DNA from: Streptomyces tsukubensis
GTDB taxonomy: Bacteria; Actinomycetota; Actinomycetes; Streptomycetales; Streptomycetaceae
DNA: 64,000 bases
Reading direction: 5' to 3'
Assembly (NCBI RefSeq): GCF_003932715.1
Contig: NZ_CP020700.1
Span: 1-64,000 of the forward strand
Made by a program: the position numbers and the translations under genes. Of the stretch, positions 13,158 through 62,729 are shown in pieces (positions within the stretch are counted from its first letter, which is position 1; each line of letters opens with the position of its first letter). Under the pieces are notes generated by a model, which saw nothing but the letters and a program-made list of their open reading frames with translations, had not been told where the DNA came from and ran no database searches.

Positions 13158-13469
13158 ATGGAATTGTCACCGCAGGTTTCCCGGCGGTGCCCGGCGGACG
13201 GGGCTCCGGAATCCCGGGCCGTGTCCGCGGACGCACCGGATTCACTCGTGCAGGAGGTCGCGGCACTGTGGGCGGAGTATCTCGGTTCCCGTGAAGTCGG
13301 TGCGGACGACGACTTCTTCGCGCTCGGCGGCAATTCCCTGACCGGAATAAAGATCATCGAACGGGTGGCCCGGGACTACGGCGTCGAACTGTCCGTGCGG
13401 GGCTTCTATCTGGCGCAGACCCCGGCGCGGGTCGCCGGGCTGATACGGCAGCTGAGGGCGGCGGCGTGA
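13158..13469 (+). CDS. Stand-alone peptidyl/acyl carrier protein
   Basis: This 103-residue protein has a disordered N terminus and one carrier domain (residues 28-100). The phosphopantetheine site is [16 protein letters not shown], with Ser60 as the attachment point; LGGNSL is the NRPS-type (PCP) variant. It is the first gene of the plus-strand operon, and its stop overlaps the P450 start by 4 bases. A free carrier encoded together with a P450 and a thioesterase-fold protein is the usual arrangement for hydroxylating an amino acid while it is tethered (as in the NikP1/NikQ and NovH/NovI systems), except that here the adenylation domain is encoded elsewhere. The stand-alone A domain at 61125-62729 is the only obvious loader in the window. 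Confidence 0.9.
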   Translation: MELSPQVSRRCPADGAPESRAVSADAPDSLVQEVAALWAEYLGSREVGADDDFFALGGNSLTGIKIIERVARDYGVELSVRGFYLAQTPARVAGLIRQLRAAA

Positions 13470-14716
13470 GGCTGACGCCGGGCGGCGGGCGGGGTATCGA
13501 CCCCGGGAGCGTCGACCTGTTCGACCTGGACCTCTACGCCTCCGGCGATCCGCACCCGGTCTGGGACGAGATGCGCGCGAAGGCCCCGCTGCACCACCAG
13601 GTCCTCCCCGACGGGCGGGAGTTCTGGTCGGTCACCCGCTACGACGACGTGTGCCGCGTGCTCGGCGACCACCGCGAGTTCACCTCGGAGCGCGGCACCG
13701 TGGTCACCCATCTCGGGGTGGACGACGTCGCGGCGGGCACGCTGATGACGTCCACCGATCCGCCCCGGCACACCGAGGTCCGCAGGCCGCTCGGCACCCG
13801 GCTCACCGCACGGGCGGTGAAGTCCTGGGAGGACAGGATCCGCGGGACGGTGGTGCGCTTCCTCGAACCGGCGCTCGACGGGGAGGTCTTCGACCTGGCC
13901 GAACAGGCGCTGCTCCTCCCGGCGATGGTCACGGGCCCGCTCCTCGGGATCCCGGAGAAGGACTGGGAGGAGCTCGTCCGGCTGACCGCGATGGTGACGG
14001 CCCCCTCGGACCCGCACTTCCGGCAGGGCAGCGAGGCCGCGACCCTGGCGATCTCCCACCACGAGCTGCTCGCCTACGTCAAGGAGTGGGCCGGCGCCCG
14101 GCGGGCGGACGGGCGGGAGGACGACAGCCTGCTCCACCACCTCATGAGCGTCCGCCCCGGGGGCATGCCGCTGACCGACGAGGAGATCGCCCTCGACGGG
14201 TACAGCATCCTGCTGGGCGCCAATGTGACGACGCCGCACACCGTCTCCGGCACGGTGCAGGCCCTCGCCGAGCGGCCCGAGCAGTTCGAGAAGGCCCGGG
14301 CGGACCCGTCGCTGATCCCGAACCTGGTGGAGGAGGGGCTGCGCTGGACGTCGGCGGCCTGCAACTTCATGCGGTACGCGGTGGACGACGTGGAGATCGC
14401 CGGGGGCACCGTGCCCGCCCGGGGGGCGGTCGTCGCCTGGATCGGGTCGGCCAACCGGGACGCGGCCCGGTTCCCCGACCCCCACCGGTTCGACATCACG
14501 CGCAGCGGCGCCAAGCGCCAGATCGCGTTCGGGTTCGGGCCGCACTTCTGCATCGGGGCGCCGCTGGCCCGGATGACCCTGCGGATCTTCTTCGAGGAGC
14601 TGACCCGGCGGTTCGGGTCGATCGGTCTCGCCGGTGAACCGCAGCACCTCCGGTCGTACTTCATCGCCGGGATGACGCACCTGCCCATCGTCGCCCAGAA
14701 ACGAAGGACGCCATGA
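13466..14716 (+). CDS. Cytochrome P450, probably acting on a carrier-bound amino acid
   Basis: The 416-residue P450 has the haem-binding loop FGFGPHFCIGAPLAR with ligand Cys362, the K-helix E-x-x-R (EEGLRW) and an I-helix LLGANVTTPHT, in which the usual acidic residue before Thr is replaced. That change is seen in some P450s with special oxygen activation. It is cytoplasmic and needs an external ferredoxin; none is encoded here. GTG start at 13466 overlaps the carrier-protein stop, and its own stop overlaps the next gene by 4 bases, so the three genes are translationally coupled. By analogy with amino-acyl-PCP hydroxylases it may oxidise the beta carbon or ring of a residue held on the 13158 carrier. 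Acting on the finished peptide is the alternative. Confidence 0.9.
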   Translation: MRLTPGGGRGIDPGSVDLFDLDLYASGDPHPVWDEMRAKAPLHHQVLPDGREFWSVTRYDDVCRVLGDHREFTSERGTVVTHLGVDDVAAGTLMTSTDPPRHTEVRRPLGTRLTARAVKSWEDRIRGTVVRFLEPALDGEVFDLAEQALLLPAMVTGPLLGIPEKDWEELVRLTAMVTAPSDPHFRQGSEAATLAISHHELLAYVKEWAGARRADGREDDSLLHHLMSVRPGGMPLTDEEIALDGYSILLGANVTTPHTVSGTVQALAERPEQFEKARADPSLIPNLVEEGLRWTSAACNFMRYAVDDVEIAGGTVPARGAVVAWIGSANRDAARFPDPHRFDITRSGAKRQIAFGFGPHFCIGAPLARMTLRIFFEELTRRFGSIGLAGEPQHLRSYFIAGMTHLPIVAQKRRTP

Positions 14717-15450: not shown

Positions 15451-15591
15451 CCCGGACCCGCGGGCAGTGCACCGCGGCGGGGCAGGGTCCGGGCCCCGGG
15501 GGCCGCGGCGGCAGCGGTGTTCGCGGGCCGGCCGCGGGCGGCCCGCCCGCAGCCATGTCCGTTCTTCGAGGAACTGTTTGGGGAGGCCCTG

Positions 15592-18500
15592 GTGCAGGAC
15601 ACCGACGACTACCGGTCCGGCTCGCCACGCGTCGCCGGTGACGCACGGACACCGCACGACGGGGTGCAGGAGCCGCAGGACACCGCCCCTGAGCCCGTCG
15701 CCGTCGTCGGCCTGTCGTGCCGCCTGCCCGGAGCCCCGGACCCCCTCGCCTTCTGGCGGCTGCTGCGCGAGGGCCGGAGCGGAATCACCGCTCTGCCGGC
15801 ATCCCGCCGGGAAGCGGCACCGGATCCCGGGGCGGCCGGCCCGGCCGCCCGGGGCGGTTTCCTCGGCGACATCGCCGGTTTCGACGCCGACTTCTTCGGC
15901 ATCTCCCCGAACGAGGCCGCGATGACTGACCCCCAGCAGCGTCTGATGCTGGAGCTGGGCTGGGAGGCGCTGGAAGACGCCGGCATCGTCCCCGCGGACC
16001 TGGCCGGGACCCGTACCGGAGTCTTCGCGGCCGCGATCTGGGACGACTACGCGACCCGGCTCCACCGGCACGGAACCCGGCACCTCAGCCGCCACTCCGT
16101 CACCGGGCTGCACCGCGGCATCATCGCCAACCGGCTCTCCTACACCCTCGGCCTCAACGGCCCCAGTCTCACCGTCGATTCGGCCCAGTCCTCGTCGCTG
16201 GTGGCGGTGCACCTGGCAGCGGAGAGCCTGCGCTCCGGGGAGTGCACCCTCGCACTCGCGGGCGGGGTCAACCTCGTGGCCGCCCCCGCGAGCACCGTCG
16301 CCTCCACCCTGTTCGGCGGCCTGTCACCGGACGGACTGTGCCGGACGTTCGACGCCCGGGCCGGCGGCTACGTGCGCGGTGAGGGCGGCGCCTGCCTGGC
16401 CCTGAAGACCCTGTCCCGGGCGGTGGCGGACGGCGACCGGATCCACTGCCTGATCGACGGCAGCGCCGTCAACAACGACGGTGCCACGCCCGGTCTGACG
16501 GTGCCCGGCGCACGTACCCAGGAAGAGGTCGTCCGCCGGGCCCACGCACGCGCCGGGACCCGCCCCGGGGACGTCCAGTACGTCGAGCTCCACGGCACCG
16601 GGACTCGGGTGGGCGACCCCGTCGAGGCGGCGGCCCTGGGCGCGGCGCTCGGTGCCGGCCGCCCGGCCGGTGATCCGCTGCTCGTGGGGTCGGTGAAGAC
16701 CAACGTCGGCCATCTGGAGGGCGCGGCGGGCGTCGTCGGCCTGCTGAAGACCATTCTCAGCATCCGCCACCGCGAGCTGCCGCCCAGCCTCAACTTCGAG
16801 ACGCCCAGCCCCGCCATCGCCTTCGGGGAACTGCGGCTGCGGGTCCAGCAGGACCTCACGCCCTGGCCGCGGCCCGGCCGGCCGCTGGTCGCGGGCGTCA
16901 GTTCGTTCGGCATGGGCGGTACCAACTGCCATGTCGTCGTGCGCGAGTGGACGGGTGCCCGCGGGGAGAAGGACGCCGAAGGGGCCGTGGGGGGCGGGCC
17001 GGTGGTGGTGACGGACGGGACGCTGCCGTGGCCGCTGTCCGCGAAGACCCCGGCCGCACTGCGGGACCAGGCACGCCGCCTCCTGGACCACCTCGACCGC
17101 AACCCCGGGGCGGGTGCGGCCGAGACCGGCCACGCACTGGCAGCCGGACGCTCCGTCTTCGACCACCGGGCCGTCCTCACCGCAACCGGCCCCGACGGCT
17201 TCCGCACCGCGCTCCGCGCCCTGGCCGACGGCGAACCCTCACCCCACGCCGTCACCGGCACCGCCCCCGCCCGGACGGGCGGGACGGTGTTCGTCTTCCC
17301 GGGGCAGGGGTCGCAGTGGGCGGGCATGGGGGTACGGCTCATGGCCTCCAGCCCGGTGTTCGCCCGCAGCCTGGCCGACTGCACGGCGGCCCTGGAGCCG
17401 TACACCGGCTGGGACCTGATCGACGTCCTCCACGAGAGGCACGGCGCACCCGCGCTGGAGGGTGACGATGTGGTGCAGCCCGCGCTGTGGGCAGTGATGG
17501 TGTCCCTGGCCCGGCTCTGGGAGCACCTCGGGGTCGTCCCCGACGCGGTGGTGGGCCATTCGCAGGGCGAGATCGCCGCCGCCCATATCGCCGGGGTACT
17601 CACCCTGCAGGACGCCGCCCGCATCGTCGCCCTGCGCTCCCGCGCCCTCGCCGAAATCGCGGGAGAAGGCGGCATGGTCTCCCTGCCCCTCTCCCCCGCC
17701 GACACCGCACAACTGACACAGCGGTGGGAAGGCCGGCTGGCCGTCGCCACCGTCAACGGACCCTCCGCCACCGTCGTCGCCGGCGACCTCACCGCCGTCG
17801 GCGAACTCCTCACCCACTGCGAGAACGAGAACATCCGGGCGCGCCGGGTGCCGATCGACTACGCCTCGCACACCTCTCAGGTGCATCCGCTGCGCGGGCG
17901 TCTGCTGGAGGTTCTGGCGCCGGTGCGCCCGCGGGAGGCGGAGACGGCGTTCTACTCGACGGTGGGTGACCGCGCCAAGGGTGCGCTGAGCGACACCACG
18001 GTGATGGACGCGGCCTACTGGTACGACAACCTTGCTACGGCGGTGCATTTCGAGGGGGCGGTACGGGCCCTGCTGGACGACGGGCACACCCTGTTCGTCG
18101 AGGTCAGCCCCCACCCCGTCCTCACCCACCCGCTCCGGGAGTCCGCCGAACACCACACCAGCAGCACCAGCAGCACGGGCAGTACGGGCGGCGGGGCCCC
18201 GGCCACCATCACCGTCACCCCGACCCTGCGCCGCAACGACGACACCTGGCACCGCGTCCTCACCTCCCTCGCCACCACCCACACCCACACCCCCACCAAC
18301 TGGAAACGCTTCTACCCCACCACCCCACCCACCCACCCCGACCTCCCCACCTACCCCTTCCAACGACAGCGCCACTGGGTCGATCTGCCCGGGGACGGCC
18401 CCGCCCCGGCAGACACAGACGCAGCCGCAGCCGCCGGTACGGGCGCCGGGCGGGCCGCGGAGACCGGGCCGGCTGCCGGGCCCGGGGCGCGGACGCCGCT

Positions 18501-21500
18501 CCTGGAGCGGCTGCGCAGCGCACCGCGTGCACGGCAGGAGCAGCTTCTGACCGACCGGATCCGCGCCGAGGCCGCGGCGGTCACCGGGCGGGCCGCCTGG
18601 CAGACGGTCGGCGGCGACCGTACGTTCCGGGACCTCGGCTTCGACTCCTTCGCCGCCGTGGAACTGCAGAACCGTCTCACCGGCCTCACCGGGCTGCCGC
18701 TGCCGTCGACGCTGCTCTTCGACCACCCCACCCCCGTGGCCGTGGCCCGCTTCCTGCTCGCCGGGCTCCTGGACTCGGGGCGGCCCGGTGCCGCGGCGGG
18801 CTCGTCCGCGCCGGCCGCGGCGGGTGCGGACGAGCCCGTCGCGATCGTGGGGATGGCCTGCCGCTACCCGGGGGACGTCTCAGGCCCGGAGGACCTGTGG
18901 CGCCTGGTCAGCGAAGGCACCGACGCCATCACGGGTTTCCCCGCCGACCGGGGCTGGGACACCGGCGGGCTCTTCGACCCGGATCCGGAGCGGCCCGGGA
19001 CCTCGTACACCGACCGGGGCGGTTTCCTTTCCGGCGCGGGAGCGTTCGACCCCGCGTTCTTCGGGATCAGCCCGCGCGAAGCGACGGCGATGGACCCGCA
19101 GCAGCGGCTGCTGCTGGAAACCTCCTGGGAGGCCCTGGAGCGGGCGGGCATCGACCCGGCCGCCCTGCGCGGCAGCGCCACCGGTGTCTTCGTGGGCGCC
19201 ATGACGCAGGAGTACGGTCCCCGTCTGCACGACGGCGCGGCCGGGCTCGACGGCTATCTGCTGACCGGGAACACCGCGAGCGTCGCCTCGGGCCGTATCG
19301 CGTACACCCTCGGTCTGCAGGGTCCGGCCGTGACGGTGGACACGGCCTGTTCCTCCTCCCTGGTCGCGGTGCACCAGGCGGCCGGGGCGCTGCGCGGCGG
19401 CGAGTGCGATCTCGCCCTCGCGGGCGGTGTCGCCGTCATGGCGGCGCCGGGCATGTTCGTGGAGTTCAGCCGGCAGCGCGGGCTTGCGGCGGACGGGCGG
19501 TGCAAGGCGTTCGCGGAGGCCGCGGACGGTACGGCCTGGGCGGAGGGGGTGGGCCTGCTGCTTCTGGAGCGGCTCTCCGACGCCCGGCGCAACGGGCACC
19601 GGGTGCTGGCCCTGGTGCGCGGGTCGGCCGTCAATCAGGACGGTGCCAGCAATGGTCTGACGGCTCCGAGCGGGCCGTCCCAGGAGCGGGTGATCCGGCA
19701 GGCCCTGGCCGGTGCGGGTCTGTCGGCGGGGGAGGTCGACGCCGTCGAGGCGCATGGGACCGGGACCGCTCTGGGGGATCCCATCGAGGCGCGGGCGCTG
19801 CTCGCCGTGTACGGCCGGGACCGGCCCGGGGACCGGCCGTTGTGGCTGGGGTCGCTGAAGTCCAACATCGGGCATGCGCAGGCCGCGGCGGGGGTGGGCG
19901 GGGTCATCAAGATGGTCATGGCGCTGCGGCACGGGGTGTTGCCGAAGACGCTGCATGTGGACCGGCCGTCGTCGCATGTGGACTGGTCGGCGGGTGCGGT
20001 GGAGCTGCTGACCGAGGCGCGGGGGTGGCCGGAGTGCGGCCGTCCGCGGCGGGCCGGTGTCTCGTCCTTCGGTATCAGCGGTACCAATGCCCATCTGATC
20101 GTCGAGGAGGCGCCCGCGGACGGGGGTGCGGGGGCAGTGGGGGGCGGGCCGGTGGTGGTGACGGACGGGACGCTGCCGTGGCCGCTGTCCGCGAAGACCC
20201 CGGGCGCGCTGCGGGACCAGGCACGCCGCCTTCTGGACCATCTCGACCGCAACCCCGGGGCGGGTGCGGCCGAGACCGGCCACGCACTGGCGGCCGGACG
20301 CTCCGTCTTCGACCACCGGGCCGTCCTCACCGCAACCGGCCCCGACGGCTTCCGCAGCGCGCTCCGTGCCCTGGCCGACGGCGAGCCGTCACCGCATGCC
20401 GTCACCGGCACCGCGCCTGCGCGGACGGGCGGGACGGTGTTCGTCTTCCCGGGGCAGGGGTCGCAGTGGGCGGGGATGGGGGTGGAGCTGATGCGTACGT
20501 CGCCGGTGTTCGCGCGTTGTCTGGCGGACTGCGGGGCGGCGCTGGAGCCGTACACCGGCTGGGATCTTCTGGATGTCCTCCGGGGGGTGCCGGGGGCGCC
20601 CGGCCTCGACCGGGTGGATGTGGTGCAGCCCGCGCTGTGGGCGGTGATGGTGTCCCTGGCCCGGCTCTGGGAGCACCTCGGGGTCGTTCCCGACGCGGTG
20701 GTGGGCCATTCGCAGGGCGAGATCGCCGCCGCCCATATCGCCGGAGTGCTGACCCTGGAGGACGCCGCCCGCATCGTCGCCCTGCGCTCCCGGGCCCTCG
20801 CCGGAATAGCCGGACACGGCGGCATGGTCTCCCTGCCCCTCTCCCCCGCCGACACCGCACAACTGACGAAACGGTGGGAAGGACGGCTGGCCGTCGCCAC
20901 CGTCAACGGACCCTCCGCCACCGTCGTCGCGGGCGACCTCACCGCCGTCGGCGAACTCCTCGCCCACTGCGAGAGGGAGGATGTCCGGGCGCGGAGGATC
21001 CCGGTGGACTATGCCTCGCACTCCCCTCATATGGAGGCGCTGCGGGGCGAACTCCTGAGCCTGCTGGCGCCGGTGCGCCCGCGGGAGGCGGAGGTGGCGT
21101 TCTACTCGACGGTGGGTGACCGTGCCAAGGGTGCGATGAGCGACACGACGGTGATGGACGCGGCCTACTGGTACGAGAATCTGCGGACCACCGTGGCGTT
21201 CGAGGGGGCGGTACGGGCCCTGCTGGACGACGGGCACACCCTGTTCGTCGAGGTCAGCCCCCACCCGGTGCTCACCCACCCGCTGCAGGAGACCGCCGAA
21301 CACCACACCAGCAGCACCAGCAGCACGGGCAGTACGGGCGGCGGGGCCCCGGCCACCGTCACCGTCACCCCGACCCTGCGCCGCAACGACGACACCTGGC
21401 ACCGCGTCCTCACCTCCCTCGCCACCACCCACACCCACACCCCCACCGACTGGAAACGCTTCTACCCCACCACCCCACCCACCCACCCCGACCTCCCCAC

Positions 21501-24441: not shown

Positions 24442-24442
24442 C

Positions 24443-27400
24443 ATGAACGGTTCCGCGGACCGTACGGCGGAGGGCGGGGAGCGGGTCCAGCAGGCGCTGC
24501 GTGCGCTGCTGGAGGAACGCGACCGTCTCCGCCGCAGGGTCGGTGCCCTGGAGGCCGGGCGCGGCGAGCCGGTCGCCGTGGTGGCCATGGCGTGCCGCTA
24601 CCCGGGCGGGGTGTCCTCGCCCGAGGAGCTGTGGGACGTGGTCCGCGGCGGCCGGGACGTGGTGGACGTGTTCCCCGGGGACCGGGGGTGGCCGGACGTC
24701 TTCGACCCGGATCCCGACGCGCCGGGCCGCTCGTACGCGCGGCACGGCGGTTTCCTCCGGGACGCGGGCGCTTTCGACGCGGAGTTCTTCGGCATCAGTC
24801 CGCGTGAGGCTCTGGCGACCGATCCGCAGCAGCGGCTGCTGCTGGAGACGGCGTGGGAGGTGTTCGAGCGGGCGGGCATCGTTCCGGCCGAGGTCCGCGG
24901 GGCCGATGTCGGGGTGTTCTGCGGGGTGATGTTCCCCGAGTACGGGATGCGTTTCCTGGAGGCGCGGGGGAACGAGCTGGAGGGTTTCCTGCTGCAGGGC
25001 AGCGCGCCGAGCGTGGCCTCCGGGCGGGTGGCGTACGAGTTCGGGCTGACCGGTCCCGCGGTGACGGTGGACACGGCGTGCTCGTCGTCGCTGGTGTCCG
25101 TGCATCTGGCGATGCAGTCGCTGCGTTCGGGGGAATCGTCGCTGGCGCTGGCGGGCGGGGCGGCGCTGATGCCGACGCCCTGGGTGTTCCTGGAGTTCTC
25201 GCGGCAGCGGGGGCTGGCGGCGGACGGCCGGTGCAAGTCCTTCTCGGACGCGGCCGACGGGACGGGCTGGGCCGAGGGGGCGGGCGTGCTGCTCCTGGAG
25301 AAGCTGTCGGACGCCCGCCGCAACGGGCATCCGGTGCTGGCCGTCCTGCGGGGTTCGGCGGTGAACCAGGACGGGGCCAGCAATGGGCTGACCGCGCCCA
25401 ACGGCCGGGCCCAGGAGCGGGTGATCCGCAGGGCGCTGGCGAACGCGGGGGTGTCCGCGTCCGAGGTGGACCTCCTGGAGGCGCACGGGACCGGGACGAC
25501 GCTGGGCGATCCCATCGAGGCGGGGGCCCTGCTGGCGACCTACGGGCAGGGCCGGGCCGAGGGCAGGCCGCTGTGGCTGGGGTCGCTGAAGTCGAACATC
25601 GGGCACTCGATGGCCGCGGCGGGGGTGGGCGGGGTGATCAAGGCGGTGATGGCGATGCGGCACCGCTATCTGCCCAAGACCCTGCATGCCGGGGTGCCTT
25701 CGCGGCATGTGGACTGGTCGTCCGGTGCGGTCGAGCTGCTGGTGGAGGGGCGTGAGTGGGACCGGGCGGACGGCCCGCGGCGGGCCGCGGTGTCGTCGTT
25801 CGGTATCAGTGGCACCAATGCGCACGTCGTCCTGGAGGAGGCGCCGCACGAGGAGCCGGGGGACGGGAACGGGGAGCCGGGGGACGGGAACGGCACGGGG
25901 GTGCAGGTGTACGGGGGCGGTCCGGGTACGGGTGGTGTCGCCGGGGGTGTTGTGCCGTGGGTGCTGTCCGGCCGGAGTCCGGGCGCCCTGCGGCAGCAGG
26001 CGGCCGCGCTGCACGGCGCGGCCGCCGCCGACCCGGGGTTCGACCTCGCCGCCGCGGGCTGGTCGCTGGTGTCGGGCCGGACCCGGTTCGAGCACCGTGC
26101 GGTGGTCCTGGGGCACGGCCGGGACGAGCTGCTGAACGGCCTGGCGGCGCTCGCCGCCGGGGAGGAGTCCGCCGCGGTGGTCCACGGCAGGGCAGGGCCG
26201 CTCGGTGCGACGGTCTTCGTGTTCCCCGGGCAGGGGTCGCAGTGGGCCGGTATGGGCCGCGAGCTGTACGGGGCGTTCCCCGTCTTCGCGCGGAGTCTGG
26301 ACGCGTGCGGGGCGGCGCTGGCCGAGTGGGTCGACTGGTCGCTGCTCGACGTGGTGCACGGGGTGGCGGGGGCACCGGGGCTGGACCGGGTGGACGTGGT
26401 GCAGCCCGTGCTGTTCTCGGTGATGGTGTCGCTGGCCGCCCTGTGGCGGTCCTGGGGTGTGGAACCGGATGCGGTGGTGGGGCACAGTCAGGGGGAGATA
26501 GCCGCCGCCTGTGTCTGCGGGGCGCTGTCCCTGCGCGATGCGGCCAAGGTCGTGGCGCTGCGCAGCCGGGCTCTGGTGGATCTGACCGGTCACGGCGCGA
26601 TGGCGTCGGTCGCCCTGTCCGAGGACGCCGTTGCGGAGCGGATCGCCCCGTGGGGCGGGCGGGTGGGTGTCGCCGTCGTCAACGGGCCCCGTTCGGTGGT
26701 GGTGTCCGGGGATCCCGGCGCCGTCGACGAGTTCGTGGGGAAGCTGGAGGCCGAGGAGGTGGCGGCCCGGCGGATCAACGTCGGCTACGCGTCCCATTCG
26801 CCTCATGTGGCCCGGGTCCAATCCCGGGTGACCGAAGCGCTGTCCGATCTGAGCCCGGGTACGTCGGCGCTGCCCTTCTACTCGACGCTGTACGGCGAAG
26901 TCGTCGACACCGCGCGGCTGGACGGCGGCTACTGGTACCGCAATCTGCGGGAGAAGGTCGTCTTCGAGACGGCCGTGCGGCGGCTTGCCGGGGACGGTTT
27001 CCGGGTGTTCATCGAGATGAGTCCGCATCCGGTGCTGACCGTCCCGGTGCAGGAGATCACCGAGGACACCGAGGGCGTGGAGGGTGCGGTGGTCCTGTCG
27101 TCGGTGCGGCGGGACCGCGGGGAGGCGGAGGCCGTCCTCGGGTCGCTGGCGGCGCTGCACGTCCGGGGCGGGCAGGCCGCCTGGGAAGCCCTGTTCACCA
27201 CGCGCCGGCGGGTGGATCTGCCGACGTACGCGTTCCAGCGGCGGCGCTACTGGCTGGACTCCGCCCGCCCGGGGGCGGTGCTGGACCTGCCGGCCGCGGA
27301 GCCGGAGGCGGGGGTGGGTGGCGGGGAGCTGCTCGCCCTGCCGGAGCTGATCAAAGGTCTCCCGGACGGCGAGGCGGCGGCGCTGGTCCTCGACCACGTC

Positions 27401-31884: not shown

Positions 31885-31913
31885 ACGTCTTCTCCCTGCC
31901 TGGCGGGCGGTGA
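31875..31913 (+). CDS. Possible 12-residue leader peptide
   Basis: ATG at 31875 reads MNSYVFSLPGGR and then TGA; the stop overlaps the GTG start of the methyltransferase (GTGA). The layout would couple translation of the methyltransferase to the leader. The start codon lies in the centre of the 18-bp palindrome. There is no strong ribosome site in front (GCGGGGACG), so this may be chance. Confidence 0.3.
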   Translation: MNSYVFSLPGGR

Positions 31914-34317: not shown

Positions 34318-34328
34318 CGGCCGCGGGG

Positions 34329-43995: not shown

Positions 43996-51808
<7,813 letters not shown>

Positions 51809-51812
<4 letters not shown>

Positions 51813-54800
51813 CGGAGGTTCTCCTCAACGGTCATCCGGCGCAGCCGGGGCCGGGCGGGGGCGGCCTGTTCGCCGATCCGGTCGGCCAGTTGGGCGACCG
51901 TGGGGTGGGTGAAGACCGTGGTGACTTTCACGTCGAGGCCGAGTTCGCTGCGGATGCGGCCGGTGAGGCGGGTGGCCAGCAGGGAGTGTCCTCCGAGGTC
52001 GAAGAAGCCGGTGTCGATGCCGACGGAGTCGACGCCGAGGAGTTCGGCGAAGAGCCGGCACAGGGCTTTCTCCCTGTCGTTGCGCGGGCCGCGTCCGGCG
52101 GTGGCCTCGGCGTAGTCGGGTGCGGGGAGGGCGGCCCGGTCGAGTTTTCCGGTCAGGGTGGTGGGGAGCCGGTCCAGCGGCACGATCGCGGAGGGGACCA
52201 TGTAGGGGGGCAGTTGTTCCTGGAGCAGGGCGGTGAGGCCGGCGGGGTCGGCCGGGCCGGTGCCGGGTTGGGGTACCACGTAGGCGAGGAGCCGCTGGTC
52301 GCCGGCGCGGTCTTCGCGTACGACGGCGACGGCGGTGCCGATGCCGGGTTGGGCGGTCAGGGCGGTCTCGATTTCGCCGAGCTCGATACGGCGGCCGCGG
52401 ATCTTGACCTGGAAGTCGGTGCGGTCGAGGTATTCGAGGCGGCCGTGGCCGTCCCAGCGCGCCAGGTCGCCGGTGCGGTACATCCGGGTGCCGGGTTCGC
52501 CGTAGGGGCAGGCGGTGAACCGGTGGGCGGTCAGTGCGGGCTGTCGGAGGTAGCCCCTGGCCAGGGGGGTGCCGGCGATGTAGAGCTCGCCGGGGATGCC
52601 GGGTGGGACGGGGCGCAGTGCCGTGTCCAGGACGTAGACCCGGGTGTTGCGCAGGGGTGTGCCGATGGGGAGTTCGGCTGCTCCGGGCGTGTGCTGCCAG
52701 GTGGTGACTTCGACGGTGGCCTCGGTGGGGCCGTAGAGGTTGTGGACGGTGCAGTTCGGCAGCAGTTCGGCGAACCGGTTGGCGAGGGCGGCGGGGAAGG
52801 GTTCGGCGCCGACTTCGGCCCAGCGCAGGCTGGTGCAGTGGCGGGCGGCGGGTTCGTCGGTGAAGGCGGCCAGCTGGGAGGAGACGAAGACGGCGCCGGT
52901 GACCTGTTCGCGCTGGATGAGGCCGGCGAGGTAGGCGGGGTCGCGGCGGCCGTCGGGGTGGGCGAGGACCACGGCGGCCCCGGTCTGCAGGGGTGCGAAC
53001 ATCTCCGGTATCGAGGCGTCGAAGCCGGGTGCGGTGCTGAAGAGGATGCGGTCGTCGGCGGTGACGGCGAAGTGGTCGAGGCCCCATTCGATGCGGTTCA
53101 TGATGGAGCGGTGGGAGACCAGGACGCCTTTGGGGCCGCCGGTGGAGCCCGAGGTGTGGATGATGTACGCGGTGTGGTCGGGCAGCAGGGTGCGCCGCGG
53201 GTTGGTGTCGGGCCGGCCGGAGACGTCGGGCAGGGTCTGGTCGAGGGTGAGCAGGGGGCGGGCGGTGTCGAGCATGTGCCGTACCCGGTCGGGGGGCAGT
53301 TCGGGGTCGACGGGCAGATAGGCGGCGCCTGCTTTGGTGACGGCGAAGGCGGCGACCATCAGGTCGACCGAGCGGGGGATGCGGACGGCGACGGGCCGGT
53401 CGGGTCCGGCGCCCTGTTCGGTGAGCCAGTGGGCGAGCCGGTTGGCGCGCCGGTTGAACTCGCGGTAGGTGAGGGTTTCGTCCTCGCCGATGACGGCGGT
53501 GCGGTGGGGGGTGCGTTCGGCCTGGGCCTCGAAGGCGTCGGGCAGGGTGCTGTCGGGCAGCGGGTGGGCGGTGTCGTTGACGGTGTGCAGGAGGTGGTCG
53601 CGCTCGGCCGGGGAGAGGACGTCGATGGTGGCGGCGGGTGCGTGGGGGTCGGCGAGGATCCGGTCCAGGATCCGTACGAGGCGGGCGCCGACGGCTTCGG
53701 CCTCGTGGAGGGTGTAGAGGTCTTTCCGGTAGTCGAGGGAGAGCCGCAGATAGGGGTCGGCTGCGGCGAGGGCGAGGGCGTAGTGTGCGCCGGCGATGGG
53801 CCGGATGGCGTCGATGGTGAGCCCGGCGGAGGTGTGGGCGTCGGCGATGCCCTCGCGGTCCATGGGGTAGTTCTCGAAGCCGATGAAGGTGTCGAAGAGG
53901 GCGGGCAGTCCGCTGGCGCGCTGGATGTCGGCGAGGCCGTAGTGGTGGTGGTCCAGGAGGGCGGTCTGCCGGTCCTGGAGGCGGGTGACGATATCGGCGA
54001 GGGTGTCGCCGGGCTGCCAGAACACCCTGATGGGGAGGGTGTTGATGAAGAGGCCGACCATGTCGTCGGATCCGGGCAGGTCGGCGGGGCGGCCGTTGAC
54101 GGCGGCGCCGAACACCACGTCGCGCCGTCCGGTGAGCTTGGACAGCAGGATGGCCCAGGCGCCCTGGAGGAGGGTGTTGAGGGTGATGCCGAGTTCGGCG
54201 GCGCGGCGGGCGAGTTCGCGTCCCTTGTCGATGGACAGGGGTACTTCGACCTTTCCGATGGCGGACGCGCCCTGTCGGGCCGTGGTGTCGGGGGCCACGA
54301 GGGTGGGCTGGTCGAAGCCGGTGAGCTCGGCGGTCCAGCGGGCGGCGGAGGCCTGCTGGTCGTGGGTGGACAGCCAGGTCAGGTAGTCGCCGTAGCTGCG
54401 GACCGGGGGGAGGTCGCCGGTGCCTGCGTAGAGGCGGATCAGGTCCCTGATGACCAGGGGTGAGGACCAGCCGTCGAAGACGGTGTGGTGGGCGGTGATG
54501 ATCAGTTTGGCCCGGTCGGGGCCGCAGGTGAGCAGGCCCAGGCGGAACAGCGGGGGGCGGGTGGGGTCGAGCCGGGCGGCCCGGTCCTCGCCGAGGAAGG
54601 TGTCGAGTGCGGTGTCCTGTGCGGTCTCGTCCCGGCCGGTCACGTCGGTGTGCCGCCAGGGCAGGGTGACGTGCTCGGGGACGATCTGGACGGGGTCGCC
54701 GCCGGCCGCGTGGTGGAAGGCGGCGCGCAGGTTGGGGTAGCGCTCCAGGAGGGCCTGTCCGGCGGCCCGCATCCGGTCGGGGTCGATGGTCCCGGAGAGG

Positions 54801-57800
54801 TGGAGCACGAGTTGCATGTGGTAGACGTCGTAGGAGTCCTCGGCGATCGCCGCCTGGAACTGGATGCCGGACTGTCCCGGGGCTTGGGGCCAGATCTCGG
54901 TCAGGGGGCCGTAGCGGGTCTCCCAGGCTTCGATCTCGTCCTGGCGGACGGTGGTGAGCGGCGCGTCGGAGGGGGTGAGTCCGCCGGCCCGGGGGTGGGC
55001 GGCGTGTGCGGCCATGGTGTGCAGGGTCTCGGTCCAGATCCGGGCGAGCTCGGTGACCTGCGGGCGGGTGAGGATTCCGGTGGGGAACATGAAGGCGGTG
55101 GTGAGCCGGGTGCCGTCGGGGGTGTCGGTGGCGACGGAGTTGACTTCCAGTGCGGACAGTGCGGGCAGGTCCGGGTCGAGGGCGGGGATCAGCTCGGCGG
55201 ACCAGGGGGCGGGGCCCCAGCCCTGTGCGCGCAGGTGTTCGGGGACGTCGGTGCCGGAGATCCGGCCGAGGTAGTTGAATCCGATCTGCGGTTCGGGGTG
55301 GGGGGCGAGTTCCGTGGCCGTGCGGGGGTTGAGGTGGCGCAGCAGTCCGTAGCCGATGCCCTTGCCGGGGATGCCGCGGAGCTGTTCCTTGACCTGTTTG
55401 ATCGCGGTTGCGGCGGTGGGGGCGCCGGTGGCCGGGCAGGCGGGGCCGGTGGTGCGCACGTCGATGCGGGCGGGGTGCATGCTGGTGAACCAGCCGACGG
55501 TGCGGGAGAGGTCGGCGCCGGGGGCGAGGTCCTCTTCGCGGCCGTGCCCTTCGAGGCGGACCAGGAGCGGACGGTCGGTGCCCTGCCACTGGTTGACGGC
55601 GAGGGCGAGTGCGGCGAGCAGGACGTCGGTGGGGGTGCTGCGGTAGGCCGCGGGCAGGGTGGTCAGCAGGGCGTCGGTGGTGTCGGCGGGGAGCTGGATC
55701 CGTACGGTGTCGACGGTGGACATGGTGTCGACGGCGGGGTCGGGGAGGCGGCTGCCCAGTGGGGGGTTCGGGGTGGTGAGCAGGGAGCGCCAGTAGGGCA
55801 GTTCGGCTTCCCTCTGCGGGGTGAGGGCGTCGGCCTGCAGGGCCTGGGCCCAGCGGCGGGCGGAGGTGCCGGTGGGGGGCAGTGCGGGGGTGGTGCCGGT
55901 GCGGATCTGCTGCCAGGCCTCGGCGAGGTCGGACATGAGGATCCGCCAGGAGACGCCGTCGACGACCAGGTGGTGGAGGACGACGAGCAGTCTGCCGGTG
56001 CCGGAGTCGGCGGCGTACCAGACGAACTGGGCCATGGTCCCGGCGTGCGGGTCGAGGCGTCCGGCGGCCTCGTCGAGTTCCGTGCGGGCGTTGTCGAGGG
56101 CGGTGTCCTGTGCGGTCTCGTCCCAGCGGCCGTCGCAGGGGATGCGGTGGAGGTGGTCGGCGGCCCGGACGGTGCCGGGCGGGCGGATGTCCAGGTGGGG
56201 GTCGTCGCCGGGGGCGCCGGGGACCAGCCGGGCGCGCAGCAGGTCGTGCCGGTCGAGTACGGCGTCCAGGGTGGCGGTCAGCCCGGCCCGGTCGATGTCC
56301 CGGGGCAGTTCCAGGGCCATGGCCATGGCGAACCGGTCGATGCGGCCGCCGTGCCGGAAGATGTGGCGGGCGACCGGCTGGAGCGGCATGGGGCCGATGC
56401 CGCCGTCGGCGTCTTCGGCGAGGGCGGGGGTGAGGTCGGGGCGGGCGTCGGCCGCCTCGGCCAGCCGGGCCGCGGTGCGGCATTCGAAGATCTCCCGGGT
56501 GGTCAGTTTCAGTCCCCGGGCCCGGGCCCGGGCGACGACCTGGATGGAGCGCAGGCTGTCGCCGCCGACGGCGAAGAAGTCGTCGTCGATGCCGACGCGT
56601 TCCACCCCGAGGACGTCGATGTAGGCGGCGACGATGACCGCTTCGGTGTCGGTACGGGGCTTGCGGTAGGCCTCGCCGGTGAATTCGGGTTCCGGCAGGG
56701 CGGAGCGGTCGAGTTTGCCGGTCGGTCCCAGCGGCATGCGGCCGACGGTGACGAAGGCTGCGGGGACCATGTAGTCGGGCAGCCGTCCGGCGACGAATCT
56801 GCGCAGTTCGGCGGCCGATGCTCCGGCCATGGTGTTGACGTCGCCGACGCCGCCGGCTCCGTCGTCGGGGACGGCTCCGTCGCCTTCGTGGACGACGTAG
56901 GCGACGAGCCGGTGTCCGCCGCCCAGGGGGGCCTTGCGGCTGATGACGACGGCTTCGCGGATGCCGGGGTAGAGCTCGCACACGGCCTGGACCTCGGCGG
57001 GGTCGATGCGGAAGCCGCGTACCTTGACCTGGCCGTCGCTCCGGCCGAGGCATTCCAGTTCGCCGTGGGTGTTCCAGCGGGCCAGATCGCCCGTACGGTA
57101 CATCCGCTCCCCCGCCGGTTCGAAGGGGTTGGCGATGTAGCGTTCCGCGGTCATGCCGGGGCGGGCGTGGTAGCCGCGGCCCAGGCAGGTGCCGGCGACG
57201 TACAGTTCGCCGATCACGCCCTGCGGTACGGGGGTGAGTGAGGGGCCCAGGACGTAGGCGCGCATATTGCCCAGGGGGGTGCCGATGGGGGCGATGTCGC
57301 CCTCGGCGGGTTCCGGGGCGGGCGGGAGGCAGGAGGCGGTGGCGTAGAAGCTTTCGCTCTGTCCGTAGGAGTTGACGATCCGTACGCCGGGCAGGGCTTC
57401 GCGGACCTGGCGGACCAGGCGGGTGGGGAGGATGTCGCCGGCGAAGACGACGGTGGTGACGCCATGGGTTTTCGGCAGGTGTTCGACCAGTTCGCCCAGG
57501 ACGGAGGGGACCGCGCTGATGACCTGGCCGTCCCAGCGGTCGCGTTCGCCCAGGACCAGTGCGTCGGGGACCAGGTCGACGGTGCCGCCGGTGGAGAGGG
57601 CGGAGAGCAGTTCGAAGACGGAGACGTCGAAGTTGACGGAGGTGCCGGCCAGGATCCGCCAGCCGGGCGGGGGGTCCAGGGTGCGGACGAGTTGCCGGAT
57701 GCCGTTGACGACGCTGCGGTGGGTGATGGCCGCGCCCTTGGGGGTGCCCGTGGAGCCGGAGGTGTACATGACGTAGGCGAGGTTGTCGGGGTCCGGCGGG

Positions 57801-59593
57801 GCGGTCCGGCCGGTGCCGTCGGGGGTGTCGGGCCCGTACGGGAGGTCGAGGTTGACGGTCGAGATGCCGTGCTGCGGCAGGTCGCGTCCGGTGCGGGTGT
57901 CGGTGACCGCGAACCGGGGGGCTGCTTCGGCGAGTACCTGGTGGGACCGTCCGCTGTGGTGCTGCGGGTCCATCGGCAGATAGGCGGCGCCGGATTTGAG
58001 GATGCCGAGGAGGCCGACGGCGAGGTTCTCGGTGCGGGGCAGTGCGAGGGCCACCAGGTCTTCCGGTCCGGCGCCGCGGCGGACGAGTTCCCGGGCGAGC
58101 CGGTCGGCGCGTTCGTCGAGTTCCCGGTAGGTCAGGGTGCGGTCGTCGCAGACGACGGCCGGTGCGTCGGGGGTCCGGGCCGCCTGGTCCTCGAAGAGCC
58201 GGGGGACCGTCAGGGCGGGGACGGTCGTGGCGGTGTCGTTGAAGCGGGTGAGGAGCCGGTCCCGTTCGGGGGTGTCGAGGACGTCGATGCGGCCGACCGG
58301 GCGGCCGGGGTCGGCGGTGAGCCGGTCCAGTACCCGGACGAAGCGGCGGGCGAGGTCTTCGGCGGTGGAGCGGTCGAACAGGTCGGTGGCGTACTCCAGG
58401 CGGCAGTCCGCGCCGCCGGAGCCGGTGGGGATCAGATTGAAGAACAGGTCGAACTTGGCGGTCCCGGTGTCGAGTTTGTCGACCCGGACATCGAGGCCGG
58501 GGAACTCCGTCTCCGGTACGGCCTCCTGCCAGGCGAGCATCACCTGGAAGAACGGGTGGTAGGCGGTGGACCGTTCGGGGTTGAGGAGTTCCACCAGCCG
58601 TTCGAAGGGCATGTCCTGGTGGTCGTAGGCGGCGAGGGCCCGCTCCCGTACCCGCTGCAGTAGCTGGTGGAAGGTCGGGGTGCCGGACAGGTCGACGCGG
58701 AGTACCCAGGTGTTGACGAAGAATCCGACGAGGTCGCGCAGTTCGTCGTCGGTGCGGCCGGCGATCGGTGCGCCGATGGGGATGTCGTCGCCGCTGCCGA
58801 GGTGGTGCAGGAGGACTCCGAGGGCGGAGTGCATGACCATGGAGACGGTGGTGTCGGCGCGGGCGGCCAGCTCCCCGACCTGGTGCAGCAGGCCGGCGCC
58901 GAGGGTGAAGGGGACGGTGTCGCCGTGGTGGCCCGTCGTCTTGGGGCGGGGGCGGTCGGTGGGCAGGGCCAGCGGCTGCGGCAGGCCGGCCAGGGTCCGG
59001 CGCCAGTACTCCAGCTGCCGGGCCGCGAGGCTTTCGGGGTCGGACTCCTCGCCCAGGACGTCGCGCTGCCACAGGGTGTAGTCCGCGTACTGCACGGGCA
59101 GCGGCTCCCATGCCGGGGCTCCCCCGCCGGTCCGGGCGGTGTAGGCGGTGTGGAGGTCGCGGAAGAGCGGGCCGAAGGACTCCCCGTCCACGGCGATGTG
59201 GTGCAGCACCAGCACCAGGGTGTGGTCCCGGGGGCCGGATCGCACCAGCGTGGCGCGGAGGGGGATGTCGGCGGCGAGGTCGAAGGTGCGGGTGGCGAGG
59301 TCGCCGACCGCCGCCGTCCGCTCCTGCTCCGTCGTGGCCGCGACGACCGGCAGGGCGAACCCTGCCCGGCCGGCGGGCAGGACCTGCTGGTGGGGAACGC
59401 CGTCGTCGTCCTCGACGATCACCGTGCGCAGGATCTCGTGCCTGTCCAGGAGATCGCGGAGCGCGGACTCCAGCGCACTCACGCTCAGCTCACCGGTCAG
59501 CCGCAGGGCGAAGGCGCCGTTGTAGGTGGCGGAGGGGCCTTCGAACCGGTCCACGAACCACAGCCGGCGCTGCGCGAACGACAACGGGATCAT
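51809..59593 (-). CDS. NRPS: C-A-PCP-E-C-A-PCP
   Basis: This two-module synthetase has 2594 residues and is the first NRPS of the minus-strand operon. Module 1: C (HHIAVDG at 131-137), A ([10 protein letters not shown] near 613), PCP ([10 protein letters not shown] near 1011), E ([10 protein letters not shown] near 1212). Module 2: C (HHTVFDGWS near 1704), A ([10 protein letters not shown] near 2149), PCP (LGGHSLLA near 2536). Pocket codes read by eye: module 1 D-V-F-S-V-A-S-Y-A-K (piperazic-acid-like from memory), module 2 D-A-P-V-E-G-L-V-E-K (unknown, but the same family as the terminal module). By colinearity it adds residues 2 (D) and 3. The E domain and the following C domain imply a D residue at position 2. 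ATG 59593 is preceded by GGAG. Confidence 0.93.
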
Positions 59594-59635: not shown

Positions 59636-60823
59636 TCAGCCCTGGTCGAGTACGGTCAGCAGTTCGTTGTTGTAGAAGTCGTCGAAGGAGTAGGCGCCGG
59701 ACACGGTCGAGAAGTAGCGGTCGATCAGGTCCTGGTGGCCGACGAGCTTCTGCACCATTTCCGTGTGGCGTTCGGGCTTGAGCTCGGCCACGTTGAGGGC
59801 GCCCTGGTAGAAGCTGTAGAACGTGCTGTCCAGGTCCTTCTCGTAGCGGCGGAGCGCGGTGGCGAGCGCGGTGTCGTCGTGGAGGTCCTGGCCGATGTGG
59901 CCGGTGAGGGCCTGGGCCTGGAGGAAGGCGTCGGTGATACCGCGGGCGGTGATGGAGTCCTTGTGGTGCACGGCGTCGCCGAGCAGGACCCATCCGGGGC
60001 CGTGGGCCTTGCGGAAGTAGTTCTCCTGGGCCCCGGTGCCGTACATCTGCTCGACGCGTTTGCCCGCGGACATCCGCTCGTACAGTTCGGGGGCGGTGGT
60101 GCGGACGGCTTCGAGGTAGGAGTCCTCGACATGGGTGCGGACGTCGGCGAACTCGCTCTGCGGGAAGTAGGTCATGATCAGCGTGAGGCCGTCGTTGGTG
60201 GGGGCGAGGGCGATCCACCGTCCCGGCCGTTCGTAGAGCTCGAAGTGGGCGGGGACCTGCTCCCAGTAGCTGTAGTAGGTGCAGGTCATCCGGGGGCGCT
60301 CGACGACCTTGGGGGCGCCGGTCCGGCGGGCCACCAGGGACCGCATGCCGTCGGCGCCGACGACCAGCCGGGCGTGTTCGGTGGCCGGGGTGCCGCCGGG
60401 GGTGGTGTACCGCACTCCGGTGACCCGGTCGCCGGTGTGGAGCAGATCGGTGACGGTGCAGGACTGGCGGAAGTCCACTCCGGCGGCCACGGCGCCGCGG
60501 GCGAGGATCGGGTCGAGGACGAACCGCCGGGGTGCGTACGTGGTGCGGTGGCCGCCGACCGGCAGGGAGAAGCCCTCCAGGCGGACGCCGAGCGCCTCGT
60601 AGCTCTGGCGGTCGATCGGCCGGCAGCCCGCGCTGCGGAGTTCGCCGAGCAGTCCCCAGCGGTCGAGCAGTGCCACGCCCGGCTGGTGAATATAGTGCGA
60701 GGACAGGGTGTCCTGCGGAAAGGTTGCCTTTTCCAGCAGCAGGACGCGGTATCCCTGCCGGGCGAACAGCATGGCCGCCGGCGAACCCGCACATCGGGCA
60801 CCGATGACAATCACATCATACAT
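59636..60823 (-). CDS. FAD-dependent oxidoreductase/monooxygenase (PHBH fold)
   Basis: The 395-residue flavoprotein has the N-terminal dinucleotide fold MYDVIVIGARCAGSPAAMLF with LLLEK, the central V-G-A-D-G-M-R-S motif (LVVGADGMRSLVARRTGAP) and the second FAD motif WVLLGDAVHHKDSITARGIT. These define the p-hydroxybenzoate-hydroxylase superfamily. The tryptophan motif of flavin halogenases (W-x-W-x-I-P) is absent, so halogenation is unlikely. It lies between NRPS and a free PCP/A pair in one operon, so it probably oxidises the aminoacyl group on that PCP (hydroxylation or dehydrogenation). I prefer ATG 60823 (AGAGAGG upstream) to the TTG at 60841. Confidence 0.85.
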   Translation of the reverse strand: MYDVIVIGARCAGSPAAMLFARQGYRVLLLEKATFPQDTLSSHYIHQPGVALLDRWGLLGELRSAGCRPIDRQSYEALGVRLEGFSLPVGGHRTTYAPRRFVLDPILARGAVAAGVDFRQSCTVTDLLHTGDRVTGVRYTTPGGTPATEHARLVVGADGMRSLVARRTGAPKVVERPRMTCTYYSYWEQVPAHFELYERPGRWIALAPTNDGLTLIMTYFPQSEFADVRTHVEDSYLEAVRTTAPELYERMSAGKRVEQMYGTGAQENYFRKAHGPGWVLLGDAVHHKDSITARGITDAFLQAQALTGHIGQDLHDDTALATALRRYEKDLDSTFYSFYQGALNVAELKPERHTEMVQKLVGHQDLIDRYFSTVSGAYSFDDFYNNELLTVLDQG

Positions 60824-60894: not shown

Positions 60895-61128
60895 CTATCG
60901 GGCAACCCGGTTCATGGATTCAACGATATGGGCGGAAATCGAAGCGACCGTCGAGTGGAGATACATCTGGTCCATGGGGACCTCGACGCCCAGCTCGTCG
61001 AGGAATGCGATCTGAATCTTCGTCATGGTCACGGACTGTCCGCCGAGGGCGAAGAAGTCGTCGTCGACCGATATATCGTCGCGCTGGAGTTCCCGGCACC
61101 ATATGGCGCGCACCCTGTCGGAAATCAT
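60895..61128 (-). CDS. Stand-alone PCP
   Basis: The 77-residue carrier protein consists of one domain with [17 protein letters not shown] and Ser32 as the phosphopantetheine site. Its ATG overlaps the stop of the A-domain gene (ATGA), so the two are made together and surely act as a pair: the A domain loads this carrier. The FAD enzyme follows 71 bases downstream. It is the second free carrier in the cluster, after that at 13158. Confidence 0.92.
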   Translation of the reverse strand: MISDRVRAIWCRELQRDDISVDDDFFALGGQSVTMTKIQIAFLDELGVEVPMDQMYLHSTVASISAHIVESMNRVAR

Positions 61129-62729
61129 CGCGGTCCTTCCGTTGTTCCGTCTGTCGTCGGGGCGGCGGACCGGCCGCGGAATGCGCCGGCCAGTGCCGTG
61201 CGGTCCACTTTTCCGTGCGGGCTCAGCGGAAGCCGCGGGATGGTGACGAAATGGGCGGGGACCATATTCCGCGGCAGTGTTTCGAGGAGGCCGGTGCGCA
61301 GGCCGTTCTCGTCGAGCCCGCCGGGGGATCGGACGAGATAGGCGACCAGTTCGGTCTCCCCCGTGCCGCGGTCGCCGGGCACGACGGCGGCTTCCCGGAC
61401 CCCGGGCAGTCTCTCCAGCGTGCGTTCGATGTCGGCCGGGTCGATGCGCATGCCCCGCACCTTCACCTGGGAGTCGATCCGGCCGAGGACGACGAGGTCA
61501 CCGGCGGGGGTCACCCGGCCGCGGTCGCCGGTGCGGTAGAGCCCGCGCGGTGCGCCGTCGACCAGGACGGTCGTGAACTTCCCGGATTCGGGGCCGGTGG
61601 CGCCCAGATAGCCCGCGCCGACGCCGGTCCCGGAGATGCAGATCTCGCCCGCCTCCCCCGCGGCAACGGGGTTCAGGTCCTCGTCGACGAGGTGGATCGC
61701 GGTGTTGTACGCCGGTCTGCCGACCGGTGCGATCCCCCGGTCGCCGCCGCGGTGGCCGGAGAGGTCGTACGAGGTTGCGACATCGGTGCACTCGGCGACG
61801 CCGTACTGGTGCAACAGGGTGCAGGTGGTGCCCTCGCGGCGGGCCCAGGCGGTGATCCGTTCGGTCTTCAGCGGCTCCCCGCCGAAGAGCACGTAGTCCA
61901 GCCGGGCCAGCGCGTCGCCGCCGCGCGCCGTCTCCCAGTCCACCAGCAGATAGAGCGTGCTGGAGGCGCAGTGGACGATGCGTATGTCGTGGTCGGCCAG
62001 CATCCGGTACGCCAGCATGGCGTCGAAGTTCCGGCTCGCCATCAGGTACTGGGTGGCGCCGCAGAACAGCGGTGTCATCAGGCTGCGCTGGGAGAGGTCG
62101 AACCCGAAGGCGCTGACGACCAGGTTGCCCGATCCGCTGTGCAGGCCGTATTCGGCCGTCAGCCAGTGCATCAGGTTGAACCAGCCCTCGTGCCGTACGG
62201 CGGCCAGTTTCGGGGTCCCGGTCGAGCCGGAGGTGAAGACGGCGTAGCAGATGTCGTCCCCGGTGACGGTCGTGTCCGGGCGGGCCGCCGGGAGGCCGTC
62301 CAGACGGTCGGAGAGCCGCTCGGGGGCGAGGATCTCGGCGCCCGCCGCCGCGACCGGGCCGGCGGTCGCCGGGGAGGCCACGATCAGGGCGAGACCGGGC
62401 ACCCGGCCCGCCAGCAGGGCGAGCCGGGCCGCCGGATAGGCCGGGTCGAGCGGCACATAGGCCGCGCCCGCCTTCAGCGTGCCGAGGACGGCGACGAGCA
62501 GGTCGGCCGAGTAGTCGAGACAGATGCCGACCTTCGCGCCCCGGCCGTGTCCGCGCGCGAGGAGGAAGTGGGCGAACCGGTTCGCCTCGGCGTCCAGCTC
62601 GGCGTACGTCAGCTGCGCGCCGTCGTGCACGACGGCCACCGCGTCGGGGGTGGCTGCCGCGTGCTCCTCGAACCGCCGGTGGACGACGGGCTCCGGGGGC
62701 AGGGCGACCCGCCTTCCCTGAAGGATCAT
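61125..62729 (-). CDS. Stand-alone adenylation domain
   Basis: The 534-residue amino-acid-activating enzyme carries all core motifs: TYAELD, KAGAAYVPLDPAYP, the P-loop [20 protein letters not shown] (variant A5), YRTGDRG, GRIDSQVKVRGMRIDPADIE and the A10 lysine in LSPHGKVDR. The pocket read by eye is D-L-R-H-L-G-Q-D-V-K. The H-L-G at positions 278/299/301 is shared with 4-hydroxyphenylglycine codes (D-I/A-F/Y-H-L-G-L-L-C-K), but the remaining positions differ. The C-A-E-C-T-D-V region also recalls stand-alone proline-type enzymes. ATG 62729 has GGAG upstream; the much longer ORF is an artefact. It loads the adjacent PCP and, in trans, may also serve the carrier at 13158 and the C-A*-PCP module. 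Confidence 0.9.
   Translation of the reverse strand: MILQGRRVALPPEPVVHRRFEEHAAATPDAVAVVHDGAQLTYAELDAEANRFAHFLLARGHGRGAKVGICLDYSADLLVAVLGTLKAGAAYVPLDPAYPAARLALLAGRVPGLALIVASPATAGPVAAAGAEILAPERLSDRLDGLPAARPDTTVTGDDICYAVFTSGSTGTPKLAAVRHEGWFNLMHWLTAEYGLHSGSGNLVVSAFGFDLSQRSLMTPLFCGATQYLMASRNFDAMLAYRMLADHDIRIVHCASSTLYLLVDWETARGGDALARLDYVLFGGEPLKTERITAWARREGTTCTLLHQYGVAECTDVATSYDLSGHRGGDRGIAPVGRPAYNTAIHLVDEDLNPVAAGEAGEICISGTGVGAGYLGATGPESGKFTTVLVDGAPRGLYRTGDRGRVTPAGDLVVLGRIDSQVKVRGMRIDPADIERTLERLPGVREAAVVPGDRGTGETELVAYLVRSPGGLDENGLRTGLLETLPRNMVPAHFVTIPRLPLSPHGKVDRTALAGAFRGRSAAPTTDGTTEGPR

Follow-up and report, generated by a model that had tools for sequence, protein, structure and literature searches.

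The window analyzed here, i.e., the whole 64,000-nucleotide stretch with which the main contig of Streptomyces tsukubensis begins (NZ_CP020700.1; genome 8.0 Mb), carries a hybrid polyketide synthase (PKS) and nonribosomal peptide synthetase (NRPS) gene cluster of the azinothricin (polyoxypeptin/aurantimycin) type. Its first NRPS module, composed of condensation (C), adenylation (A) and peptidyl carrier protein (PCP) domains, has an A domain (A*) that lacks its catalytic motifs. This dead A domain is found across the family, and it is mostly accompanied by a gene trio encoding a stand-alone PCP, a cytochrome P450 and a thioesterase-fold protein (TE) with a Cys nucleophile. We propose, with a probability of about 0.72, that loading of the first NRPS module occurs in trans, by a route leading from a free A domain via PCP1, the P450 and the Cys-TE to the dead module. 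The genes for this route are:

13158-13469, plus strand: PCP1, stand-alone carrier, PlyQ-like, with GGNSL motif (PF00550); proposed donor carrier for residue 1
13466-14716, plus strand: cytochrome P450, PlyR-like (PF00067); proposed beta-hydroxylase of the tethered residue
14713-15450, plus strand: thioesterase-fold protein with Cys nucleophile, PlyS-like (PF00975; RifR-like fold by sequence); proposed aminoacyl shuttle
27735-30941, plus strand: C-A*-PCP, PlyX/ArtT-like (Pfam Condensation, AMP-binding, AMP-binding_C and PP-binding); acceptor module with dead A domain
61125-62738, minus strand: free A domain, PlyC/ArtC-like, with both P-loop and A10 Lys

All parts named in a preliminary description of this DNA are present at the places given there, as judged by Pfam matches and open reading frames.

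The dead A domain of the first NRPS module

In the window, the P-loop stretch of A* reads VYGEGRDGAVTG where active relatives have xYTSGSTGxPKG, and the A10 Lys is replaced by Arg. The domain aligns along its whole length to solved A domains, and both the HHxxxDG motif of the C domain and the GGNSL motif of the PCP are intact. Domain annotation reads as that of a normal adenylation module although the catalytic motifs have been lost. Relatives were collected from one genome per species, and 80 of 407 were kept (78 loci); the alignment held the window and 76 loci, leaving out the fragments L065 and L071. The dead group consists of 51 sequences, i.e., the window and 50 full-length loci, and excludes L035 (frameshift), L041 (contig end) and L052 (deletion).

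The P-loop PKG is absent from all 51 sequences of the dead group, as is the A10 Lys (47 Arg, 2 Gly, 1 Thr and 1 Leu), whereas both are kept in 23/23 outgroup C-A-PCP modules. The C active site HHxxxDG and the carrier Ser are retained in 51/51, and the mean pairwise identity of the PCP in the group is 84%. The loss of the P-loop and A10 Lys next to intact C and PCP domains, which the preliminary description had read in the window, is therefore confirmed and extends to the whole group. Among the 120 best-listed database proteins, which come partly from the same organisms, PKG is kept in none and the A10 Lys in one. ArtT of the aurantimycin cluster (L010) belongs to the dead group and shares the dead A domain with the window, although the literature describes it as active. 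In the tree built with FastTree, no outside sequence falls within the dead group (node support 0.52), and the node adding L047 and L053 to it has a support of 1.0. A sequencing error or local decay was considered and rejected, as the defect is common to 51/51. Judged by these sequences, a dead A domain in the first module is a family trait of azinothricin-type assembly lines.

The length of A* drifts within the dead group (standard deviation 15.6 residues, against 0.6 for the C domain), and the median ratio of nonsynonymous to synonymous substitution (dN/dS), taken over 36 non-independent pairs, is 0.41 for A*, 0.27 for C and 0.17 for PCP. In Streptomyces sp. NRRL F-6131 (L052, 6907-9222), most of the A domain has been lost in frame while C and PCP are kept; 214 residues of A are left compared to 492, in 772 codons without a stop, read in one draft assembly. 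This locus is a natural deletion experiment on the dead A domain. No earlier report of a dead first-module A domain in the azinothricin family was found in the literature searched, most subscription papers lying outside that search, and PlyX was not found by name among the matches listed (two listings of 120 each).

Conservation of the PCP1-P450-Cys-TE trio

The TE-fold protein has the nucleophile-Asp-His arrangement of an alpha/beta-hydrolase fold, with FFGHCAGAL as its nucleophile elbow. All 120 TE homologues listed have the Cys nucleophile, including one named from the polyoxypeptin producer (P0099, 74%), and the aligned His is replaced in three of them. In the window, the stop of PCP1 overlaps the start of the P450 gene by 4 bases, and the stop of the P450 gene overlaps the start of the TE gene by the same length. 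A TE orthologue is present at 66-78% in 48/50 dead-A genomes and at 71-79% in 3/3 genomes with a partial dead-A gene, compared with one (at least 66%) of 24 genomes without dead A. The P450 gene adjoins the TE gene in 33/33 fetched loci and PCP1 does so in 32/33; the closest trio outside the window in the fetched set is found in the L052 genome (TE 79%, P450 89%). The TE gene lies 13-32 kb upstream of A* on the same strand in 35 of the 36 pairs checked, these being 36 of 48 pairs, with matching coordinates taken as the same contig. Across these genomes, the dead A domain and the trio are co-conserved by sequence. Donor and acceptor carriers additionally have a GGNS signature in common, which occurs in 38/38 locus records of donor carriers (some overlapping) and in 51/51 acceptor carriers, but in 18/186 carrier domains of other clusters.

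Outside the dead group, a trio with a TE of 66-67% was found in three clusters, G052 (L053), G095 and G147, and each of them has a C-T module (T, the carrier) without an A domain. The carrier of the C-T module in L053 has the PCP of the dead module as its best match (60%). An acceptor without a working A domain of its own is thus found both in the window, where A is dead, and in these three clusters, where it is missing.

Streptomyces plasmids also carry the PCP-P450-TE block, and in 11 records (H1-H11; L263) at least 80% of it lies together. On a linear plasmid of Streptomyces sp. NBC_00464, PKS genes and a gene for an AMP-binding protein come after the block, with the order unchanged.

Proposed loading route and alternatives

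In the proposed route, the free A domain would activate a Leu- or Val-type residue and load it onto PCP1, where the P450 would beta-hydroxylate it. The Cys-TE would then take up the hydroxylated residue as an enzyme thioester and pass it to the PCP of C-A*-PCP, and the C domain of this module would join the delivered residue to the polyketide. We infer the substrate, the sequence of the steps, and that the TE transfers the residue and does not hydrolyze it off. Knockouts of plyC, plyD, plyQ, plyS, plyR, plyI and plyE each abolish polyoxypeptin A (PMC3943440). The simplest reading in which the essential genes of this line would all have a function is that the Cys-TE moves the residue from PCP1 onto the first-module carrier.

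The published model for polyoxypeptin, in which PlyS hydrolyzes and PlyX re-activates, and for aurantimycin has the Cys-TE hydrolyze the beta-hydroxy amino acid off PCP1, with the module-1 A domain then activating it again for loading (PMC3943440, PMC5031334). Hydrolysis followed by re-activation has a precedent in barbamide (PMC8748450). However, re-activation by the first module is very unlikely because the A motifs are missing: the P-loop and A10 Lys are absent from this domain in 51/51 sequences, as read in ArtT and its relatives and not in PlyX, and L052 is without most of the domain. The Cys-TE might instead only release the residue, with the free A domain or a modular A domain re-activating it and loading the first-module PCP in trans. 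The free A domain is at hand in 33/33 genomes tested, and A domains acting iteratively in trans are known from capreomycin (PMC12400406), but a second activation would have to be paid for and the invariant Cys (120/120 listed) would be left unexplained, so we regard this as unlikely.

That the free A domain loads the first-module PCP directly, with the P450 acting there and PCP1 and the TE having another or an editing role, would be in line with stand-alone A-T units that rescue an inactive A domain in albicidin and others (PMC8949500). It fits poorly with PCP1, P450 and TE forming one block with 4-base overlaps that stays together in 32/33 loci, and plyQ and plyS are each essential (PMC3943440); we consider it highly improbable. 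A dead A domain could also mark a non-elongating module, so that 27735-30941 would be skipped and add nothing. This is scarcely credible given that all 51 sequences retain the C active site and the PCP, the latter at 84% mean pairwise identity, and that six published modules match six residues in polyoxypeptin and aurantimycin (PMC3943440, PMC5031334).

Several observations weigh against trans loading by the trio. The azinothricin-like cluster of Amycolatopsis oliviviridis (L029) has a dead A* without the Cys-TE/P450 trio; 3' of its dead module are an ornithine-N-hydroxylase-like frame (read by eye), a Ser-type thioesterase, and an A domain with a carrier, and its module is possibly served by another loader. 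In L051, which has a dead A domain, the sole TE match (45%) lies elsewhere in the genome; the free A domain is split over two reading frames and the FAD (flavin adenine dinucleotide) enzyme gene is short, and this cluster looks decayed. Additionally, internal stop codons are listed for 6 of the 33 best matches to the free A domain, and PCP1 is only 36% identical to the first-module PCP apart from the common GGNS. The dN/dS of 0.41 means that A* is still constrained, which leaves a remaining function possible.

SyrC and CmaE use a Cys nucleophile, and the preliminary description had taken the Cys of the TE-fold protein as a sign of a shuttle. Taken by itself, this sign did not hold up. An A-less or dead module lies within approximately 60 kb in 13/20 Cys-TE and 8/10 Ser-TE NRPS loci, as counted by reading domain strings whose A, C and T calls came from hidden Markov models (HMMs) built from the sequences of this analysis. 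Within 20-kb loci with a C domain, the Cys-TE likewise had no support as a predictor of an A-less or dead acceptor (10/23 Cys against 8/22 Ser), although a nearby P450 does go with it (22/23 against 5/22). The Cys nucleophile alone is therefore weak evidence, since acceptors are no more frequent beside it, and it does not define the known shuttles either, because LgnA uses Ser (PMC8748450). As the Cys-TE is no better a predictor, the case for trans loading rests on the pairing with dead A, L052, the three A-less clusters and the published knockouts.

Four unrelated NRPS clusters (L123, L125, L148 and L149, from G043, G001, G145 and G161) have a dead C-A*-T near a P450 and a Cys-type thioesterase, and in G043, G145 and G161 an A-T unit stands next to the P450. 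Such an arrangement may recur.

Cluster identity and comparison with known systems

The cluster is of the azinothricin type, and its predicted product would be a polyketide-acylated cyclic hexadepsipeptide. The NRPS set of this type is present, as called with Pfam and local HMMs: one C-A-PCP, two C-A-PCP-E-C-A-PCP and one C-A-MT-PCP-TE. The free A domain, two free PCPs, P450, FAD oxygenase and stand-alone TEs complete the parts. The family identity, the C-A-MT-PCP-TE protein at 39028-43995 and the Ser-type TE at 38235-38987 go beyond the preliminary description. Two A-domain codes in the window are piperazate-like (DVFSVAS-Y and DVFSIAA-Y) and resemble the published DVFSVASYAK and DVFTVAAYAK. 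A PF04299 protein, from what we take to be the family of piperazate synthases including KtzT, lies 0.7 kb past the window end. Among the matches listed, the nearest relative of the 27735-30941 protein is from Streptomyces tsukubensis (97%). The remaining genes of the cluster are:

15517-24441, plus strand: PKS KS(Q)-AT-ACP-KS-AT-DH-KR-ACP, PlyT+PlyU-like (by eye, Gln replaces the active-site Cys of the first KS)
24443-27628, plus strand: PKS KS-AT-ACP, PlyW-like
38235-38987, minus strand: stand-alone thioesterase with Ser nucleophile (GHSLG), PlyI-like
39028-43995, minus strand: NRPS C-A-MT-PCP-TE, PlyH-like, A motifs intact
43992-51812, minus strand: NRPS C-A-PCP-E-C-A-PCP, PlyG-like, both A domains intact
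51809-59593, minus strand: NRPS C-A-PCP-E-C-A-PCP, PlyF-like, both A domains intact
59636-60823, minus strand: FAD-dependent oxygenase, PlyE-like (PF01494), more likely for N-hydroxylation (role from PMC3943440)
60895-61128, minus strand: PCP2, stand-alone carrier, PlyD-like, with GGQSV motif (PF00550)
62848-63075, minus strand: MbtH-like protein, PlyA-like (PF03621; open reading frame end coordinates, start codon not fixed)

The ply, art and dpn clusters (polyoxypeptin A, aurantimycin and diperamycin) have the same parts as the window, which come in two blocks in the order of the ply gene table (PMC3943440). The minus-strand block follows ply as MbtH, A, PCP, FAD enzyme, F, G, H and TE, and the plus-strand block as PCP, P450, TE, PKS, PKS and C-A-PCP. 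Compared to ply, the window is without a PlyV-like PKS module, has PlyT and PlyU fused, and contains extra genes for prephenate dehydrogenase, FMN (flavin mononucleotide) dehydrogenase, an HPPD-type protein and an aminotransferase. The published ply and art models have an active A domain in the first module while that of the window is dead; the motifs were read in ArtT, and PlyX and DpnS1 stand outside this comparison.

For SyrC, CmaE, LgnA and WS5/WS20 of WS9326A, a TE-fold protein is described that links a stand-alone A-T pair to a module lacking a working A domain, as proposed here (PMC8748450, PMC8949500). These systems, likened to the window by description and not by sequence, have acceptors without an A domain whereas the window keeps a dead one, and in the window, unlike in the known shuttles, a P450 would act after loading and before the proposed transfer. 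In albicidin, ramoplanin and enduracidin, a module that is otherwise intact has degraded A core motifs and is partnered by a stand-alone A-T unit (PMC8949500). In contrast to the albicidin type, A and T are separate proteins in the window, and the P450 and Cys-TE come between them and the acceptor. Shuttles for A-less modules and the rescue of inactive A domains are thus already known. What appears to be new is a retained dead A domain together with a free A, a free PCP, a P450 and a Cys-TE as a rule of azinothricin-type lines, which was not found in the literature searched, although subscription papers may contain it.

If the proposed route is true, it would correct the published first peptide step of the whole azinothricin antibiotic family. 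It would also explain the mismatch, pointed out in PMC10888640, between the code of the first module and the residue at that place. Further, it would provide a natural donor-shuttle-acceptor set for putting hydroxylated residues into assembly lines.

The free A domain and a second, N-hydroxylating line

With its P-loop and A10 Lys intact, the free A domain is a stand-alone, active-type A domain within the cluster, and it has an orthologue in 33/33 genomes tested, including 32/32 of those with dead A. Its code, DLRHLGQDV, is identical in L017, L022, L051, L143 and L144 and reads DLRHFGQDV in L053. Its counterpart ArtC favors Val but takes Ser and Leu as well, in an assay of four A domains that did not include ArtT (PMC5031334). 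By analogy with ArtC, the substrate of the free A domain is therefore probably an aliphatic amino acid, Leu or Val. A role in serving a hydroxyphenylglycine residue was considered and rejected, as the code is the same in the loci listed above.

The preliminary description had residue 1 activated and tailored off-line and then delivered to the silent module. This remains the best-supported reading, given the co-conservation of dead A and the trio and the ply knockouts (PMC3943440), but two lines were probably merged in it. By analogy with the ply enzymes, the PlyE-like FAD enzyme and the PlyD-like PCP2 more likely belong to a second line, making N-hydroxy amino acids for the modules with intact A domains. 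The Ser-type TE at 38235, PCP2 and the FAD enzyme would fit the N-hydroxylation line proposed for polyoxypeptin. In this separate line, the free A domain, PCP2, the FAD enzyme and the Ser-type TE would make N-hydroxy amino acids, which would be released and re-activated by the intact modular A domains. The codes of the second A domain of the PlyF-like protein (DAP-EGLVE) and of the A domain of the PlyH-like protein (DVP-EALVE) resemble the DAPFEALVE reported for polyoxypeptin (PMC3943440).

Both lines can be joined in one scheme, to which we give an even chance. One promiscuous free A domain would feed two carriers with opposite fates, and the residue for the first module would never leave its carriers. 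The P450-hydroxylated residue would be handed by the Cys-TE to a module with an A domain that would have died a single time, in the family ancestor, and been kept as a scaffold only. The N-hydroxylated residue would be hydrolyzed off by the Ser-TE and re-activated by the intact modules. GGNS would then belong to the code of carrier recognition.

Neighboring genes

Between both gene blocks (31910-37948) are genes for an O-methyltransferase, a prephenate dehydrogenase, an FMN-dependent dehydrogenase, an HPPD-family protein and an aminotransferase. As a set they resemble a hydroxyphenylglycine pathway, but no A-domain code read in the window looks like a hydroxyphenylglycine code. Relatives of the FMN-dehydrogenase and the aminotransferase (46-47%) were found only in L052 among the fetched dead-A loci.

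A tRNA-Gly called at 25987 was rejected, as it sits within the PKS frame at 24443-27628. Two minus-strand frames near the contig end (4223-6183) have a coding-like composition, one without a Pfam match and the other with BetR below the cut-off. A DrrA/DrrB-like ABC transporter pair, comparable to PlyJ/PlyK, is encoded at 9961-12440 on the minus strand and is adjoined by a DUF1048 protein.

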